In this document: positions 25,974-32,291 of the stretch, in pieces
How positions within the stretch are numbered: the stretch's first letter is position 1
Layout: every line of letters starts with the position of its first letter
Assembly (NCBI GenBank): GCA_022486935.1
Contig: JAKVJO010000015.1
Location: 1-33,351, forward strand
Length of the DNA stretch: 33,351 bases
Direction of reading: 5' to 3'
DNA from: Solobacterium sp.
GTDB lineage: Bacteria; Bacillota_I; Bacilli_A; Erysipelotrichales; Erysipelotrichaceae
Position numbers and translations under genes: made by a program
The notes under the pieces: model-generated
The model's database searches: none
What the model saw: the letters and a program-made list of their open reading frames with translations, nothing else
What the model was told of the DNA's origin: nothing

Positions 25974-28940
25974 ATGAAAATAAAGATAAATTCTAAATGG
26001 ATTGCCAAAACGTCGGTTGTACTGACTGCAGTAACAGCGATGATTGCTTCTGTACTGCCGGTTCAGGCACTGGATATTACTACGGTTGCCGCTGATGGCA
26101 GCTATCATCTGGTGGACTTTGCCAGTGATACAGAGCTTTCAAGCTACAGCACTTACAAGGATGCGGCTTCTGCCTGGAGTAATTCACGGGACAGTTACGA
26201 TAACCTCGGGATTATCCTGGATAACAAAGTCATGCTGGCAGAATACGGCACCGCCATCATCCGTTCTACGGATGCCTGTGATGTCAATGTAACGTACACA
26301 GAAGCAGTCGATGGCGAACAGGGGTATACCAATGGATGCTATGGCGTTGATGCGGCATATCTTGCGACCAGTGCCGATGGGACGGAAGCGGAATTTGTAC
26401 TGTCCGGGGTGACCGGCTGGGCATCACTTGATGATATTAAGATTGTACCGACTGAAAATATTACGTTCCGAATGACTGCCTATACAGTACAGAGCGGACG
26501 TCTTTACCATGAAATCAAAACAGAGATCACGGATGACTACTATGCCAGCATCCTAGATCTTGGCAATGCGCCATCCTATCTGGAAGACGGCAATACCTAC
26601 TACAGCAGTGACGGCCATTATTTCTACCGGGATGACAGCTACAATGCGATGATTGATGATCTGAGAAACGGCACGCATACATCCAGCATGAATCCGGATG
26701 ATCCATGGTATGACTATTATCAGTTTGTATCGCACCGTACATTGACCAACGTGACGGAATCCCAGATGGAGTCCTACCTGAGTGATACCATGGGCATCAT
26801 CGGCAAGCCGGTATCCTATCAGGATGATGATAAAGACAGTGCAGATGATACCCGTACGAGATCCCAGTACTATGGAGAACTTTCAGAATTCTGGCAGTAT
26901 CAGTACGAATATGGATCCAATGCCCTGATGATGTTTGCCCTCAGTCTGAACGAATCGGCAGGCGGAACTTCGGCGCTTTCCTACAGCCGCAATAATCTAT
27001 TTGGCCACGCCGCATATGACAGTGATGTGGAAGCCAATGCGTCAAGATATCTGACGGTTGCCAACTCAGTTTATTCCCATGCCAAGTATTATATTTCCGG
27101 CAGTTATGCCAGCCCGCTGAAGTCAATGTTCAGGGGCTCATTCTTCGGTAACAAGTCTTCCGGCATGAATGTATCCTATGCCTCAGATCCATACTGGGGA
27201 GAGAAGGCAGCGGTGTATTACCGGCAGCTGGATGAAGGCTTCGGCAGTGTGGATGAGAATCAGTATACCCTTGGCATCAAGACTTCCTCGGATGCGGTAG
27301 ATGTCTACCAGTATCCGCAGGCAGATTCTGATGTGCTCTATACAACCAGGAAGAATCCTGACTTCAGTTTTGTGATTCTTTCTTCCTTCTCCAATGATGA
27401 TGGAGACTGGTATCAGGTACAGTCAGAAGCGACCATGGATGAAGATTCTAAGGTGGCGCTGAGTTACAACTATGACTATTCCAATGATCTTGCCTATATC
27501 AGACAGTCTGATGTCCAGGTGATATTGACTGGCAAAGAAACGGAACAGCAGACCTATGTGCATGTGACCTTTGATGCGGCAGGCGGGACATTCCCGGGCG
27601 ACGAAGCAACGGTGACCTATGCACTGCCGACTGGATCAGCAGCTTCTGCAGTGACACCGACCAAAGATCATGCCCTGTTTTCCGGCTGGGATCAATCGAC
27701 GGACAGTGTCAGCCAGGATACCACATTCACCGCTCAGTATCAGGATGTGACAGAGATCGAACTGACTTCCACACCGAAGCAGGACTATGAACTGAACGAC
27801 AAGATCAATCTGGAAAACGGAATCATCACGGTGCACTTCACCGATGGAACCAGCAAAGAAGTATCGCTTGATACTACCATGGTATCCGGCTTCAATCTGG
27901 CTAGTGGCGGTGATCAGACGGTTACAGTGACGTATGCCGGATGTACAGCGGAATATACTGTCAATGTCAACGGCGATTCTGATACGATCCGTTCTGAGAT
28001 CAAACAGGAAATCCAGGTCATGATTGAGCAGTATGCCGACAAAGATACACTGAGCGACTGGGATACCAATGCGATCATTGCATTGAAGCAGAAGATTGAT
28101 GAAAACATGCAGCCATACCTGACACAGGCAGAACTGCGCAGCTTTGACAAGATACTGAGGAAGGCTTACGGAAACAGGATCCGCTATGTACTGGAGAAGA
28201 ATCCGTATGATCTTCAAGTATCTGGACTATCGGTTTCCTATCCGCTGGATGACTCACTGGATAAGTTCTGGCTGGTAGAGGATACGTACCGCATCCGGGT
28301 CAGCAGCAATGTCTCAGACGAAGCCATTACGGCGATGACGAGAACTGCCAACTATCTGGAAGACAGTATCAATGAGACCTTCAATGTAGTCATCCGCAAG
28401 AATTACAGTGAACCGGATCCGGAAGGACCGCTGCTGATCACCATCAGCAAGCCGGAGGGCACTTCTGATTCCGATGTATTTACCGTCCTGCATTACATCA
28501 AGGATACCGGCGATGTAGTGGAATGCTACACCCGTCAGACAGATGGCAAGATTACCTTCATGACCCGGGGCGAGGGCTCCTACATGGTGCTCTCCAGAAG
28601 AACCTCCAATGTCTATACCGGTGATGATCCGGTTGAGTCATTGACATCCTCGAGCAGTTCCTGGGATATTGAAAAGATCGCAGCCTACGCATCACTTGTG
28701 CTTGGACTGTTCATCCTGATGATGATCCTGATCTATCGCCACCGTAAAAAGACCACAACCGTCAAAGTTAAACAAGAACGGGTCGTCAAGAATGAGCAGG
28801 AAGCGAAAAAACCGGCACCGCCGGCTGATATGACCCAGGCACTGCAGAATCTGGAGACTACCATGATTGATCTGAAAGCCGATGAGATCCGCAAAGCTGC
28901 AGATCAGGAGAACAGGAAGAACGGAGAGAAACACCAGTGA
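25974..28940 (+). CDS. Membrane-anchored surface glucosaminidase with Ig-like domains
   Basis: A 988-residue exported protein. Residues 1-32 are a signal peptide (cleavage near VQA). A mannosyl-glycoprotein endo-beta-N-acetylglucosaminidase (GH73-like) domain spans about 295-425, with the catalytic Glu327 in LSLNESAGGTS and NNLFGHAAY. An SH3-like segment (about 435-520), an InlB-type repeat (528-590) and a Big3-like domain (592-667) follow, then a helical region. A membrane helix at about 902-920 and a 68-residue Lys-rich cytoplasmic tail replace an LPXTG signal. It probably trims peptidoglycan at the cell surface. It overlaps the next gene by 4 bp. Confidence 0.85.
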   Translation: MKIKINSKWIAKTSVVLTAVTAMIASVLPVQALDITTVAADGSYHLVDFASDTELSSYSTYKDAASAWSNSRDSYDNLGIILDNKVMLAEYGTAIIRSTDACDVNVTYTEAVDGEQGYTNGCYGVDAAYLATSADGTEAEFVLSGVTGWASLDDIKIVPTENITFRMTAYTVQSGRLYHEIKTEITDDYYASILDLGNAPSYLEDGNTYYSSDGHYFYRDDSYNAMIDDLRNGTHTSSMNPDDPWYDYYQFVSHRTLTNVTESQMESYLSDTMGIIGKPVSYQDDDKDSADDTRTRSQYYGELSEFWQYQYEYGSNALMMFALSLNESAGGTSALSYSRNNLFGHAAYDSDVEANASRYLTVANSVYSHAKYYISGSYASPLKSMFRGSFFGNKSSGMNVSYASDPYWGEKAAVYYRQLDEGFGSVDENQYTLGIKTSSDAVDVYQYPQADSDVLYTTRKNPDFSFVILSSFSNDDGDWYQVQSEATMDEDSKVALSYNYDYSNDLAYIRQSDVQVILTGKETEQQTYVHVTFDAAGGTFPGDEATVTYALPTGSAASAVTPTKDHALFSGWDQSTDSVSQDTTFTAQYQDVTEIELTSTPKQDYELNDKINLENGIITVHFTDGTSKEVSLDTTMVSGFNLASGGDQTVTVTYAGCTAEYTVNVNGDSDTIRSEIKQEIQVMIEQYADKDTLSDWDTNAIIALKQKIDENMQPYLTQAELRSFDKILRKAYGNRIRYVLEKNPYDLQVSGLSVSYPLDDSLDKFWLVEDTYRIRVSSNVSDEAITAMTRTANYLEDSINETFNVVIRKNYSEPDPEGPLLITISKPEGTSDSDVFTVLHYIKDTGDVVECYTRQTDGKITFMTRGEGSYMVLSRRTSNVYTGDDPVESLTSSSSSWDIEKIAAYASLVLGLFILMMILIYRHRKKTTTVKVKQERVVKNEQEAKKPAPPADMTQALQNLETTMIDLKADEIRKAADQENRKNGEKHQ

Positions 28941-29215
28941 TCAATACGATTGTACCAATTGAATCCATTGAATATGAACCGGAACCAGTTAGCGCAGAAC
29001 TGCTTGAAAGTATCCGTACAAGGGGAATTGCAATCCCTGTCAGGGTCAATGAGACAGAACATGGCTATCGCTGTGAAGATGGCAGAAAACGGCTGTCAGC
29101 CTGTGCACTGCTGCTAAAAGAAGATCCCAGGTTCAGCCGGATACCGATTATGATTTTGAATGATTTCAGAAAGGCGGGAAGCAGCTTCTGGGGCAATACC
29201 CAGAATCATCACTGA
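28937..29215 (+). CDS. Stand-alone ParB-like nuclease-fold domain protein
   Basis: A 92-residue protein starting at GTG 28937, which overlaps the previous stop (GTGA). INTIVPIESIEYEPEPVSAELLE, IRTRGIAIPVRV and YRCEDGRKRLSAC reproduce the N-terminal ParB/Srx fold: the hydrophobic strand, the helix, then the D-G-R/K-R-L nucleotide-binding turn. It lacks the helix-turn-helix and dimer domains of ParB, so it does not segregate DNA by itself. Role unknown. The pseudouridine synthase starts 1 nt after its stop, so all three genes are probably one transcript. Confidence 0.7.
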   Translation: MINTIVPIESIEYEPEPVSAELLESIRTRGIAIPVRVNETEHGYRCEDGRKRLSACALLLKEDPRFSRIPIMILNDFRKAGSSFWGNTQNHH

Positions 29216-29216
29216 T

Positions 29217-30002
29217 ATGGAAGAAAGACTGCAGAAACTGATTGCCGCTGCCGGTATCTGTTCCCGGCGCAAGGCAGAAGAACTGATCACCTCAGGTAGG
29301 GTTCAGGTCAATGGTGTTACCGTCACAGAGCTTGGCACCCGGGCGTCAATGGATGATGAGATTACCGTAGATGGCACGCCGCTCAAGCGCGAAGAAAAAG
29401 TATATCTGTTAATGAACAAACCGATTCATACACTCTGCACACTCAGCGATGACCGCGGCAGGGATACCGTACTGGATTATCTCAAAGACGTAAAAGAGCG
29501 GGTATTCCCGGTCGGCCGTCTCGACTTTGAAACCACCGGTGTACTGATTCTCACCAATGATGGAGAGTTCGCCGATGAGATGATGCACCCGAGATACCAT
29601 CTTTCCAAAACGTATGATGTGACAGTCAACGGTATCTTCACAGAGACCATGGCGGAACAGCTGCGCAGCGGAATTGAACTGGAAGACGGAATCACGCTTC
29701 CTGCAGATGTCATCATCCTGTCAGTCAATCCGACGCCGGTCCATCCGAAGACCCATCTTCAGGTTACGATCTTTGAAGGAAGAAACCGGGAAGTCAGAAG
29801 GATGATGGAGTACTTCAATCTGGATGTCAGAAGACTGGAGCGGATCCGCTATGGGTTTCTGGACTGCGGAAAACTGCGGCAGGGGGAAACCAGACCGCTC
29901 AAGCCGCATGAGATTGCAAAATTAAAGGAACTGTCAGAGCACGGAACTCAGTCAACTGCAATTCCGGCTGCTGCCAAAAGCTCCGGATCCGGATCAATAT
30001 AA
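29217..30002 (+). CDS. rluB: RsuA/RluB-family rRNA pseudouridine synthase
   Basis: A 261-residue enzyme that isomerises a uridine in rRNA. Residues 1-60 are an S4 RNA-binding domain (LQKLIAAAGICSRRKAEELI). The catalytic Asp103 is in VGRLDFETTGVLILTNDG, and EGRNREVRRMMEY is the conserved late motif. The ATG at 29217 follows the upstream stop by 1 nt and has no ribosome site; an in-frame ATG at 29160 would add 19 unusual residues. The last 20 residues are Ser/Ala/Gly-rich and are read opposite the rqcH 3' end, with a 55-bp overlap. Confidence 0.9.
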   Translation: MEERLQKLIAAAGICSRRKAEELITSGRVQVNGVTVTELGTRASMDDEITVDGTPLKREEKVYLLMNKPIHTLCTLSDDRGRDTVLDYLKDVKERVFPVGRLDFETTGVLILTNDGEFADEMMHPRYHLSKTYDVTVNGIFTETMAEQLRSGIELEDGITLPADVIILSVNPTPVHPKTHLQVTIFEGRNREVRRMMEYFNLDVRRLERIRYGFLDCGKLRQGETRPLKPHEIAKLKELSEHGTQSTAIPAAAKSSGSGSI

Positions 30003-31597
30003 ATCGTCCGGTAGGAACCAAGTTGTACCATACCCGGTTTTGCGCCGGGTATTTTTTTGAGGCTGGATACCGCACACCAGTTGACCGGCACACTGGAAGA
30101 ACTGCGGCCATTGGAAAAGTAGGCGGCAATATTGGCAGCCAGTCTCAGGGTTGCCTCATCCGGGTTTGGATCATGAATGACAACATGGGCACCATGGTAG
30201 TCTTTGGCATGGAGCCAGGTATCTGTCTTTCTGGCATGATGGAAGGTCAGTGCTTCATTCTGAAGATTGTTTCTGCCGAAGGAAATCGATATGCCTTCAG
30301 GTGTTTCGATTGTTGTGATGTGCGGGCCGTTATCCTTGACCCGTTTGCGCTTGCGGCTGTTTTTGTGGGCATCGATATATCCGCCCTTGATCAGTTCTTC
30401 GCGGATTTCAGAGGCAGTATCAAAGTCAGCCTGGTCCAGCTGCTCAATCAGGCCTTCAAAGTAGGCGATCTCATTCTCACAGATTCTGATCTGCTCACTC
30501 AGATAGGTCTGTCCTTTTTTCAGCTTGCCGTATTTTGCATAGCAGCGCTGGGCATTCTTCTTACCATCCAGTTTTGGATCCAGCGGTACTTCAATGTCTT
30601 TGCCGGTTTCATAATCCTGCAGGGTAATGGAGCGCTGTCCCTTGGTATCTGAAACGTTCCAGGAATACAGCAGCTCACCGTACTTGTTCCAGCGGTCACA
30701 GTCTTTGGCTTCATCATATTCTTTCAAGAGCCGCGGCAGTTTCTGTTTCTCATGTTTCAGTGCACGGGTGACAACATGGTAGATATCCCCGGAGATTTCC
30801 TTGATCCGGGCTTTTTCTTCCTTGTGGTAGTAAAGCACATCAAAGCCTTCAAACAGCGGATAGCTGCGGCAGACACCGATGCAGGAAAGATCTACACAGT
30901 GGAAGACCGCTTCGTCATTCTGATTGGCAATATAAAGCTGGTTGGAATCATCGATTTCTTTCATGAAGCTGCTGAAGGACTGCCCTGAAGACATCCGCAG
31001 TTCGGCGATCTCTGAAAGAAAGGGGGAGAAGCCGGCAAACTGCTGGGTCAGTGTCTTTCCGGATTCAATGATCGGATCAGTGAACGGATTCCGTTTCTCC
31101 TGGGCAGGGGTGGCATGGAAGTCTGCACCCGGCTGGATGGTTCTGCGGGAGTTTTCAAACGGCGGAATCCGCTTCATTGCGTCTATGATCTTCTGATCTT
31201 TACTGACCAGAATCAGGTTGGCATATCTGCCCATCAGTTCCACCACAAGACTCAGATCTTCCAGATCACCGAGATTATTATGCCGGCGGATCGACAGCGT
31301 GCACCAGCGGTCCAGATCTGCCTGGACGATGTCTGTCAAGGTGGCACCTTCCAGGTACTTTCTCAGCACCATGACAAAATTGCCCGGTTCATCCGGAGTC
31401 GGGTAACTGCGTTTGGTCAGCAGGATGCGGTTGTACTGACTGTGACAGCTGATCAGCATCTGGAACTTTCCGGCGGATCCATGCAGCTGAAAGAGTACTT
31501 CCGTATCTGAGATCTGATATATTTTCTGGATTCTTGCCGGAAAGGATGCTTTGATCTCCGGAACAATCTTATGCAGCAGGATTCCATCAAGTGCCAT
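29948..31597 (-). CDS. rqcH: Rqc2 homolog RqcH (NFACT family ribosome-quality-control protein)
   Basis: A 549-residue NFACT protein, long annotated as fibronectin-binding protein. NFACT-N covers the start, with the conserved Asp96-Arg97 pair in ADLDRW that contacts alanyl-tRNA. A long coiled-coil region (about 270-420) follows, then NFACT-R near the C-terminus (GISISFGRNNLQNE, then WLHAKDYHGAHVVI, and KKIPGAKPGMVQLG). It binds stalled 50S subunits and directs alanine tailing of nascent chains. ATG 31597 has AGGAG spaced correctly; the longer frame upstream is not real. Its 3' end overlaps the pseudouridine synthase gene. Confidence 0.93.
   Translation of the reverse strand: MALDGILLHKIVPEIKASFPARIQKIYQISDTEVLFQLHGSAGKFQMLISCHSQYNRILLTKRSYPTPDEPGNFVMVLRKYLEGATLTDIVQADLDRWCTLSIRRHNNLGDLEDLSLVVELMGRYANLILVSKDQKIIDAMKRIPPFENSRRTIQPGADFHATPAQEKRNPFTDPIIESGKTLTQQFAGFSPFLSEIAELRMSSGQSFSSFMKEIDDSNQLYIANQNDEAVFHCVDLSCIGVCRSYPLFEGFDVLYYHKEEKARIKEISGDIYHVVTRALKHEKQKLPRLLKEYDEAKDCDRWNKYGELLYSWNVSDTKGQRSITLQDYETGKDIEVPLDPKLDGKKNAQRCYAKYGKLKKGQTYLSEQIRICENEIAYFEGLIEQLDQADFDTASEIREELIKGGYIDAHKNSRKRKRVKDNGPHITTIETPEGISISFGRNNLQNEALTFHHARKTDTWLHAKDYHGAHVVIHDPNPDEATLRLAANIAAYFSNGRSSSSVPVNWCAVSSLKKIPGAKPGMVQLGSYRTIYIDPDPELLAAAGIAVD
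30030..30058 (+). terminator. Plus-strand terminator embedded in rqcH
   Basis: ATACCCGG (30030-30037), 7-nt loop, CCGGGTAT (30045-30052), with the T-run continuing to 30058 (seven T in total). It follows the rluB stop by 28 bp but lies wholly within the minus-strand rqcH coding sequence. Confidence 0.88.
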
Positions 31598-31691: not shown

Positions 31692-32291
31692 ATGTCAAGA
31701 GGAATGCTAGTGATTATCAGCGGTCCATCAGGCGTAGGGAAAGGGACTGTTCTGAAGGAATTTATCCAGGATCCGGAATTGAAACTGGCATACTCTGTTT
31801 CCATGACTACCCGCACCAGGCGTCCTGGAGAAGTAGACGGAAAGAATTACTATTTCGTCACAAGAGAAGAATTTGAAGCGGCGAAAGAACGCGGCGAACT
31901 GCTGGAATCTGCAGAGTTTGTCGGCAATTATTACGGTACGCCGAAGAAGAGCGTGGATGCACTGAGAGATGAAGGAAAGAATGTCATCCTGGAAATTGAA
32001 GTGCAGGGCGCAAAGCAGGTCCGTGAGAAGTGCCCGGATGCACTGACGATCTTCATCATTCCGCCCAGCATGGAAGAACTTGAACGCCGGATCCGCGGCA
32101 GACATACCGAACCGGAAGAAATTGTCCAGCAGCGTCTGACCAAGGCAGCCAAGGAAATGGAACATGTCGGTGATTATAAATATGTAGTCTGCAACGATGA
32201 TCCAAAACTTGCTGCAGATATTATCCGGGTGATCATCAAGCGCCACATGGAATTCAACGAAGAACAGGAACGCAAGGCAGCACAGAAATAA
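31692..32291 (+). CDS. gmk: Guanylate kinase
   Basis: A 199-residue P-loop kinase that phosphorylates GMP to GDP with ATP. The Walker A loop is GPSGVGKG (11-18). SVSMTTRTRRPGEVDGKNYYF (about 37-57) is the GMP-binding segment, and EIEVQGAKQVREKCPDA and RIRGRHTEPEEIVQQRL are the lid and later conserved blocks. ATG 31692 follows AAAGGAGG; an upstream frame opening overlapping rqcH is spurious. The gene often precedes rpoZ, but here it stands alone and is followed by a hairpin and rpsD in opposite orientation. Confidence 0.96.
   Translation: MSRGMLVIISGPSGVGKGTVLKEFIQDPELKLAYSVSMTTRTRRPGEVDGKNYYFVTREEFEAAKERGELLESAEFVGNYYGTPKKSVDALRDEGKNVILEIEVQGAKQVREKCPDALTIFIIPPSMEELERRIRGRHTEPEEIVQQRLTKAAKEMEHVGDYKYVVCNDDPKLAADIIRVIIKRHMEFNEEQERKAAQK

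Follow-up and report, generated by a model that had tools for sequence, protein, structure and literature searches.

A terminator-like hairpin with its T tract lies wholly inside the coding sequence of rqcH in the window (the whole 33,351-nt stretch of DNA analysed), antisense to the gene, and is very probably the intrinsic (Rho-independent) terminator of the transcript of the convergent parB-like/rluB unit. By comparison among relatives, the hairpin, the conservation of its paired codons, its strand preference and its link with gene overlap can all be documented, which supports the notion that the same bases are under dual selection, for a protein motif on one strand and for a terminator on the other. 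An earlier sequence-only reading of this DNA had proposed that one stretch meets both constraints, and the covariation of paired codons, the G.U pairs that form only in the antisense RNA and the loci in which the overlap was lost now lend it support.

The embedded hairpin and the motif encoded opposite it

The source genome belongs to a Solobacterium/Lactimicrobium-like genus of Erysipelotrichaceae. On the minus strand, rqcH (29948-31597) encodes an NFACT protein of 549 aa with NFACT domains, whose closest solved structures are those of RqcH (7aqc/7as8). Facing it on the plus strand is the gene of a rluB-like pseudouridine synthase with S4 and PseudoU_synth_2 domains (29217-30002, the ORF being also open from 29160), the stop codon of which occupies 30000-30002. 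Going by the gene coordinates, the two convergent coding regions overlap by 55 bp (29948-30002), which bears out the earlier statement that the pseudouridine synthase gene ends inside rqcH. Upstream of rluB on the same strand, a ParB-like ORF of 92 aa (28937-29215; weak TIGR00180 match) probably shares its transcript, and the rluB transcript is presumed to be the one that ends at the hairpin. This ORF, located between the gene of a glucosaminidase/Big_3 protein and rluB, is conserved across the genus. Beyond rqcH, gmk is found at 31692 on the same strand as rluB. A plasmid search with rqcH as query gave no match.

The plus-strand hairpin, ATACCCGG-TTTTGCG-CCGGGTAT, spans 30030-30052 and begins 27 nt past the rluB stop. 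Its 5' arm (30030-30037) corresponds on the minus strand to the Met, Gly and Pro codons of PGM, and its 3' arm (30045-30052) to the Ile, Pro and Gly codons; between them, the loop (30038-30044) can be shortened to 5 nt by a U.G pair between positions 30038 and 30044, a pair that shows no covariation among relatives. The stem has eight perfect pairs, five of them G-C, beside this optional U.G, and a computed folding energy of -13.3 kcal/mol. Six T follow directly (30053-30058), which are the Lys codons AAA AAA on the minus strand. The 8-bp perfect stem and the T run noticed earlier inside rqcH, past the end of rluB, are thus present in the sequence, although only six of the seven T counted then belong to the tract, the seventh (30052) being the last base of the stem. 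When the antisense strand of the whole rqcH was scanned for hairpins followed by T, this site came out on top (score 21.8; 14.8 for the runner-up). Several features expected of an intrinsic terminator are found in the sequence: a GC-rich hairpin with a short loop; a U tract directly after the stem, kept in relatives via AAA AAA; the right orientation downstream of a transcription unit (rluB, same strand); and a structure maintained by selection, as judged from paired codon changes that no tree-based simulation out of 400 reproduced. A bidirectional terminator would have a T tract on both strands, but here AAGTTGTACC precedes the stem, and no run of T follows the hairpin on the minus strand.

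On the minus strand, positions 30026-30058 encode KKIPGAKPGMV, just as had been read earlier, near the end of RqcH, and this motif aligns with KKPNGAKPGFV in the RqcH of PDB 7aqc. Its reported conservation in NFACT proteins holds for KK..GAKPG.V but not for the I, P and M that build the stem, which are features of Erysipelotrichaceae. Even in this family the motif varies (KKIPGNKGSFV, KKAKGGMLGQA). By codon position, the stem pairs are Ile1-Met2, Ile2-Met1, Ile3-Gly3, Pro1-Gly2, Pro2-Gly1, Pro3-Pro3, Gly1-Pro2 and Gly2-Pro1, and the amino acids IPGxKPGM fix all but two of them, leaving Ile3-Gly3 and Pro3-Pro3 free. Since six pairs are given and Lys can be written only AAA or AAG, the motif is prone to carry a terminator on the antisense strand. 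This raises the possibility that the hairpin is a mere by-product of the protein motif without any selection on RNA, PG..PG (CCN GGN) being near self-complementary and KK A-rich. The share owed to the protein was estimated from 300 synonymous versions of these 30 codons, drawn with the gene's own codon usage. In the window, seven recodings scored as well as the real sequence, which sets the hairpin above chance, and 114 displayed some terminator-like hairpin of any strength; over 59 loci, 31% of the recodings had some terminator-like hairpin and 5% matched the real one. The motif itself predisposes to the hairpin, so that codon selection is required for part of the stem only, and with 31% of synonymous variants terminator-like any single genome is only modest evidence.

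Against the by-product explanation, the stem is retained far beyond a single genome, its free positions covary and the codons chosen at the site are unusual (see below). In addition, the same IPGxKPG residues occur in other families with unmatched Pro codons (CCA/CCA in L172, where the gene next to rqcH is codirectional, and CCC/CCC in L174). We therefore regard a hairpin free of RNA selection as very improbable: on comparative grounds covariation refutes it as a full account, and what is left of it would be the reason why a terminator arose at this motif.

Paired codons and the strand under selection

The sample consisted of 132 distinct rqcH 3' ends, 62 of which, from Erysipelotrichaceae, encode IPGxKPG[M/T]. 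In these, the codons at the two free pairs are matched: ATA goes with GGT, ATT with GGA and ATC with GGG for Ile-Gly, and CCC with CCG, CCG with CCC, CCA with CCT and CCT with CCA for Pro-Pro. Ile3-Gly3 is Watson-Crick in 48 loci, a G.U pair in the antisense RNA only in 13 and a mismatch in one; the corresponding figures for Pro3-Pro3 are 53, six and two, the remaining locus having a G.U pair in the sense RNA only. Shuffling gave on average 22.7 and 22.0 Watson-Crick pairs, respectively, with maxima of 34 and 35 in 10,000 shuffles. Because relatedness between genomes could mimic covariation, simulations were run on an RqcH tree built without the motif, with columns evolving independently. These yielded 22.5 (sd 5.6) Watson-Crick pairs for Ile3-Gly3 and 21.9 (sd 7.4) for Pro3-Pro3, and none of the 400 simulations reached the observed number for either pair. 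By parsimony, the paired state changed 20 times for Ile3-Gly3 and 19 times for Pro3-Pro3. The loop-side Gly3-Lys3, a possible ninth pair that served as internal negative control, shows no covariation (126/400 simulations) and was rejected as a selected part of the stem.

A count over 32 distinct hairpins tells the same story: 98.4% of cells are paired versus 86.6% after shuffling, there are 26 double changes versus 7.5, and the covariation score is 0.320, compared to 0.076 for shuffles and at most 0.075 for slid versions. The Pro-Pro pair displays all six standard pair types. The sequence-only reading had proposed to look in relatives for codons that preserve the stem; 58 of the 59 overlapping loci with the same motif were found to keep it, and the free pairs covary.

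The palindrome is the same stem in the DNA of both strands, and an AAAAAAA run stands directly ahead of it in the sense strand, which would be consistent with a structure acting in the rqcH mRNA as a pause, frameshift or stability element. Non-Watson-Crick pairs argue otherwise. Nineteen are G.U in the antisense RNA only, appearing as an A.C mismatch in the rqcH mRNA, versus one the other way round, and this asymmetry implies that the selected molecule is the RNA read from the rluB side. Moreover, the stem is gone in two of the three loci that have lost the overlap, with rqcH intact, and the run lies too close to the stem for a classical frameshift site, which needs a longer spacing. A sense-strand structure or frameshift was discarded on the strength of the G.U asymmetry, and we give this explanation hardly any credence. 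The evidence suggests that it is the antisense transcript on which selection acts.

Codon usage agrees with a constraint exerted by the antisense RNA. At the stem, Ile is encoded by ATA in 41/62 loci (66%), roughly a tenfold enrichment of a codon that accounts for only 6% of the 1518 other Ile codons in the same genes, and the Lys codons at the site are AAA in 112 of 124 cases (90%) versus 50% elsewhere in rqcH.

Gene overlap and the fate of the stem

A terminator was counted as KK-anchored when a hairpin of at least -8 kcal/mol had its T tract on the Lys codons. Such terminators are present in 67 of the 77 loci in which convergent neighbours overlap versus 4 of the 54 without overlap (Fisher p 3e-21, a value uncorrected for kinship). 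In seven phylogenetically independent contrasts, 3.7 agreed with this association, 0.5 went the opposite way and 2.8 showed no difference, a number too small to reach significance (sign test, median p 0.25).

The ten overlapping loci without a KK-anchored terminator are of several kinds. In L010, L011 and L099 the stem is kept and a C starts the T tract; L113 and L119 have a different terminator inside rqcH; and in L002, L104, L151 and two Clostridia the terminator is absent or weak, L104 having an antisense mismatch in the stem. L002 is the nearest relative, with an RqcH 80% identical and an equally long overlap. It is the only overlapping locus in which a motif Pro has become Ser (KKISGAKPGLV), only about five pairs of its antisense stem are left and its vicinity yielded no other good terminator, indicating that the terminator is not indispensable.

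In the core set, 58/59 overlapping loci retain all tested pairs. Three loci have lost the overlap, all of them with a terminator in the spacer; the stem is broken in L093 (gap 36) and L098 (gap 113) and intact in L107 (Fisher p 0.005 for the difference from overlapping loci). More generally, in loci with a spacer a hairpin is often found there, many having T on both sides, as in the palindromes of L118, L122, L147, L155 and L158. Overlapping genera with a differing motif have hairpins of their own that run into the same T tract of Lys codons (L111, L124, L128, L149, L153, L156, L159 and L167), each of which synonymous recoding seldom reproduces (0 to 7 of 300).

Two further candidate associations were rejected. 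Met at motif position 10 might have been imposed by the terminator, M or T being found in 62/75 loci with overlap versus 9/46 without, but the tree contrasts do not bear it out (0.3 the same way and 0.8 the opposite way out of seven). Likewise, contrasts give no support to a link across lineages between overlap and AAA AAA as such (0.9 versus 1.6), although AAA is still enriched at the site.

Terminator hairpins commonly end 3'-derived sRNAs, and the hairpin might be the 3' end of a separate RNA cut from the end of rluB, or else a processed mRNA end protected by its hairpin. An Rfam search gave a match to the SorX sRNA (RF02784) at 29981-30057 on the plus strand (E 0.0024). With 26.1 bits, this match is far under the gathering score of 46.6 and covers the terminator, which is probably what causes it; a known RNA family was rejected, this being the sole match. 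Furthermore, relatives retain not only the stem but also the T tract, which a hairpin of mere stability would not need, and the stem is lost or replaced where a spacer terminator exists. We find a separate or processed RNA highly implausible, and termination of the rluB transcript remains the preferred reading.

Related genomes offer observations on the partner genes. No rluB stands between the parB-like gene and rqcH in L016, L023, L025-L027, L030, L074 and L105, and the parB-like gene itself overlaps rqcH tail to tail (its stop lies at -3 to -6). This clade has retained the terminator in rqcH. In L016, L023, L025, L026, L030, L074 and L105, a hairpin with a T tract in the direction of rqcH was seen inside the parB-like coding sequence, about +58 to +84 past the rqcH stop, at a motif K[PAT]G-[IV]-[DE]-R (e.g. 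ACCCGGTCAATACCGGGT TTTTC). In these few genomes, each of the two genes seems to hold the terminator of the other. The 3' end of rluB likewise has hairpins of this direction that resemble terminators, either within the coding sequence or at its border, in L004, L008, L009, L028, L053, L073, L094-L096 and L101; in the window, there is a weak candidate alone, near 29979-29995.

Tentatively, and with somewhat more doubt than confidence, these patterns might be read as a family-wide rule. Overlap would force terminators into partner coding sequences, with KPG-type motifs, ready to serve as terminators, as recurrent sites and Lys codons as the T tract; in some lineages the terminators would be mutual, that of rqcH lying inside the parB-like gene or rluB and that of rluB inside rqcH. 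Neither codon set could then drift freely, so that the two genes would be locked into overlap.

Proposed mechanism and relation to known systems

In the proposed mechanism, the plus-strand RNA would fold AUACCCGG onto CCGGGUAU, followed by U6, and RNA polymerase would be released some 50-60 nt beyond the rluB stop. The terminator would lie inside the 3' part of rqcH because the coding regions overlap and no spacer is left. KK-IPGAKPGM of RqcH would provide six of the eight stem pairs and, through the reverse reading of its two Lys codons, the T tract, with selection on synonymous positions supplying Ile3-Gly3 and Pro3-Pro3 and keeping AAA for Lys. Ending transcription at the hairpin would leave most of rqcH free of antisense transcription and block read-through towards gmk. 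That polymerase terminates at this site, with insulation of rqcH and gmk as the benefit, is what we infer from the sequence comparisons.

A conserved protein motif and an opposite-strand terminator kept together make this a clean case. Paired synonymous changes are a record of the RNA constraint, the G.U pairs reveal its strand of action, and the choice of the rare ATA may be explained without reference to translation. It also follows that recoding genes beside convergent neighbours may carry a hidden cost, and that terminator finders which mask coding sequences would miss such sites. A simple scan of genomes suggests itself, namely for codons that covary across from where overlapping convergent genes end.

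Intrinsic terminators located in neighbouring genes are already known; judging from the comparative evidence, what is unusual here is the case for dual selection on protein and terminator. The literature searched held no report of synonymous-codon covariation preserving a terminator in a conserved protein motif, which is weak evidence as most subscription papers were outside its scope. Intrinsic terminators are common in tail-to-tail regions of Firmicutes (TransTermHP study, PMC1852404) and, like the one described here, consist of a GC-rich hairpin and T tract just past a gene that faces a convergent gene. However, that survey handles spacers and the post-stop region in bulk, whereas here the coding sequence of the opposing gene contains the entire signal, which coincides with a conserved protein motif and shows codon covariation. 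Convergent gene pairs are also served by the well-described bidirectional terminators (Ju, Li and Liu 2019, cited in PMC7566282), and the palindromes with T on both sides noted above in relatives with a spacer are of that kind. The rqcH hairpin, by contrast, has no A tract ahead of it and would work in one direction only. Protruding terminators came to light in the rewriting of the Caulobacter ethensis genome, where redesign removed terminators that formed part of the following gene's sequence (PMC8144410). There too, one gene's terminator is in its neighbour's sequence, but that case comes without long-term comparative evidence of dual selection and involves no specific protein motif. Finally, the excludon concept covers convergent genes whose transcripts overlap at their 3' ends, read-through making antisense RNA (PMC7154746). 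The rluB/rqcH pair is likewise convergent, with an overlap visible in its coding regions, but the terminator embedded in rqcH would limit the overlap of the two transcripts to about 110 nt.
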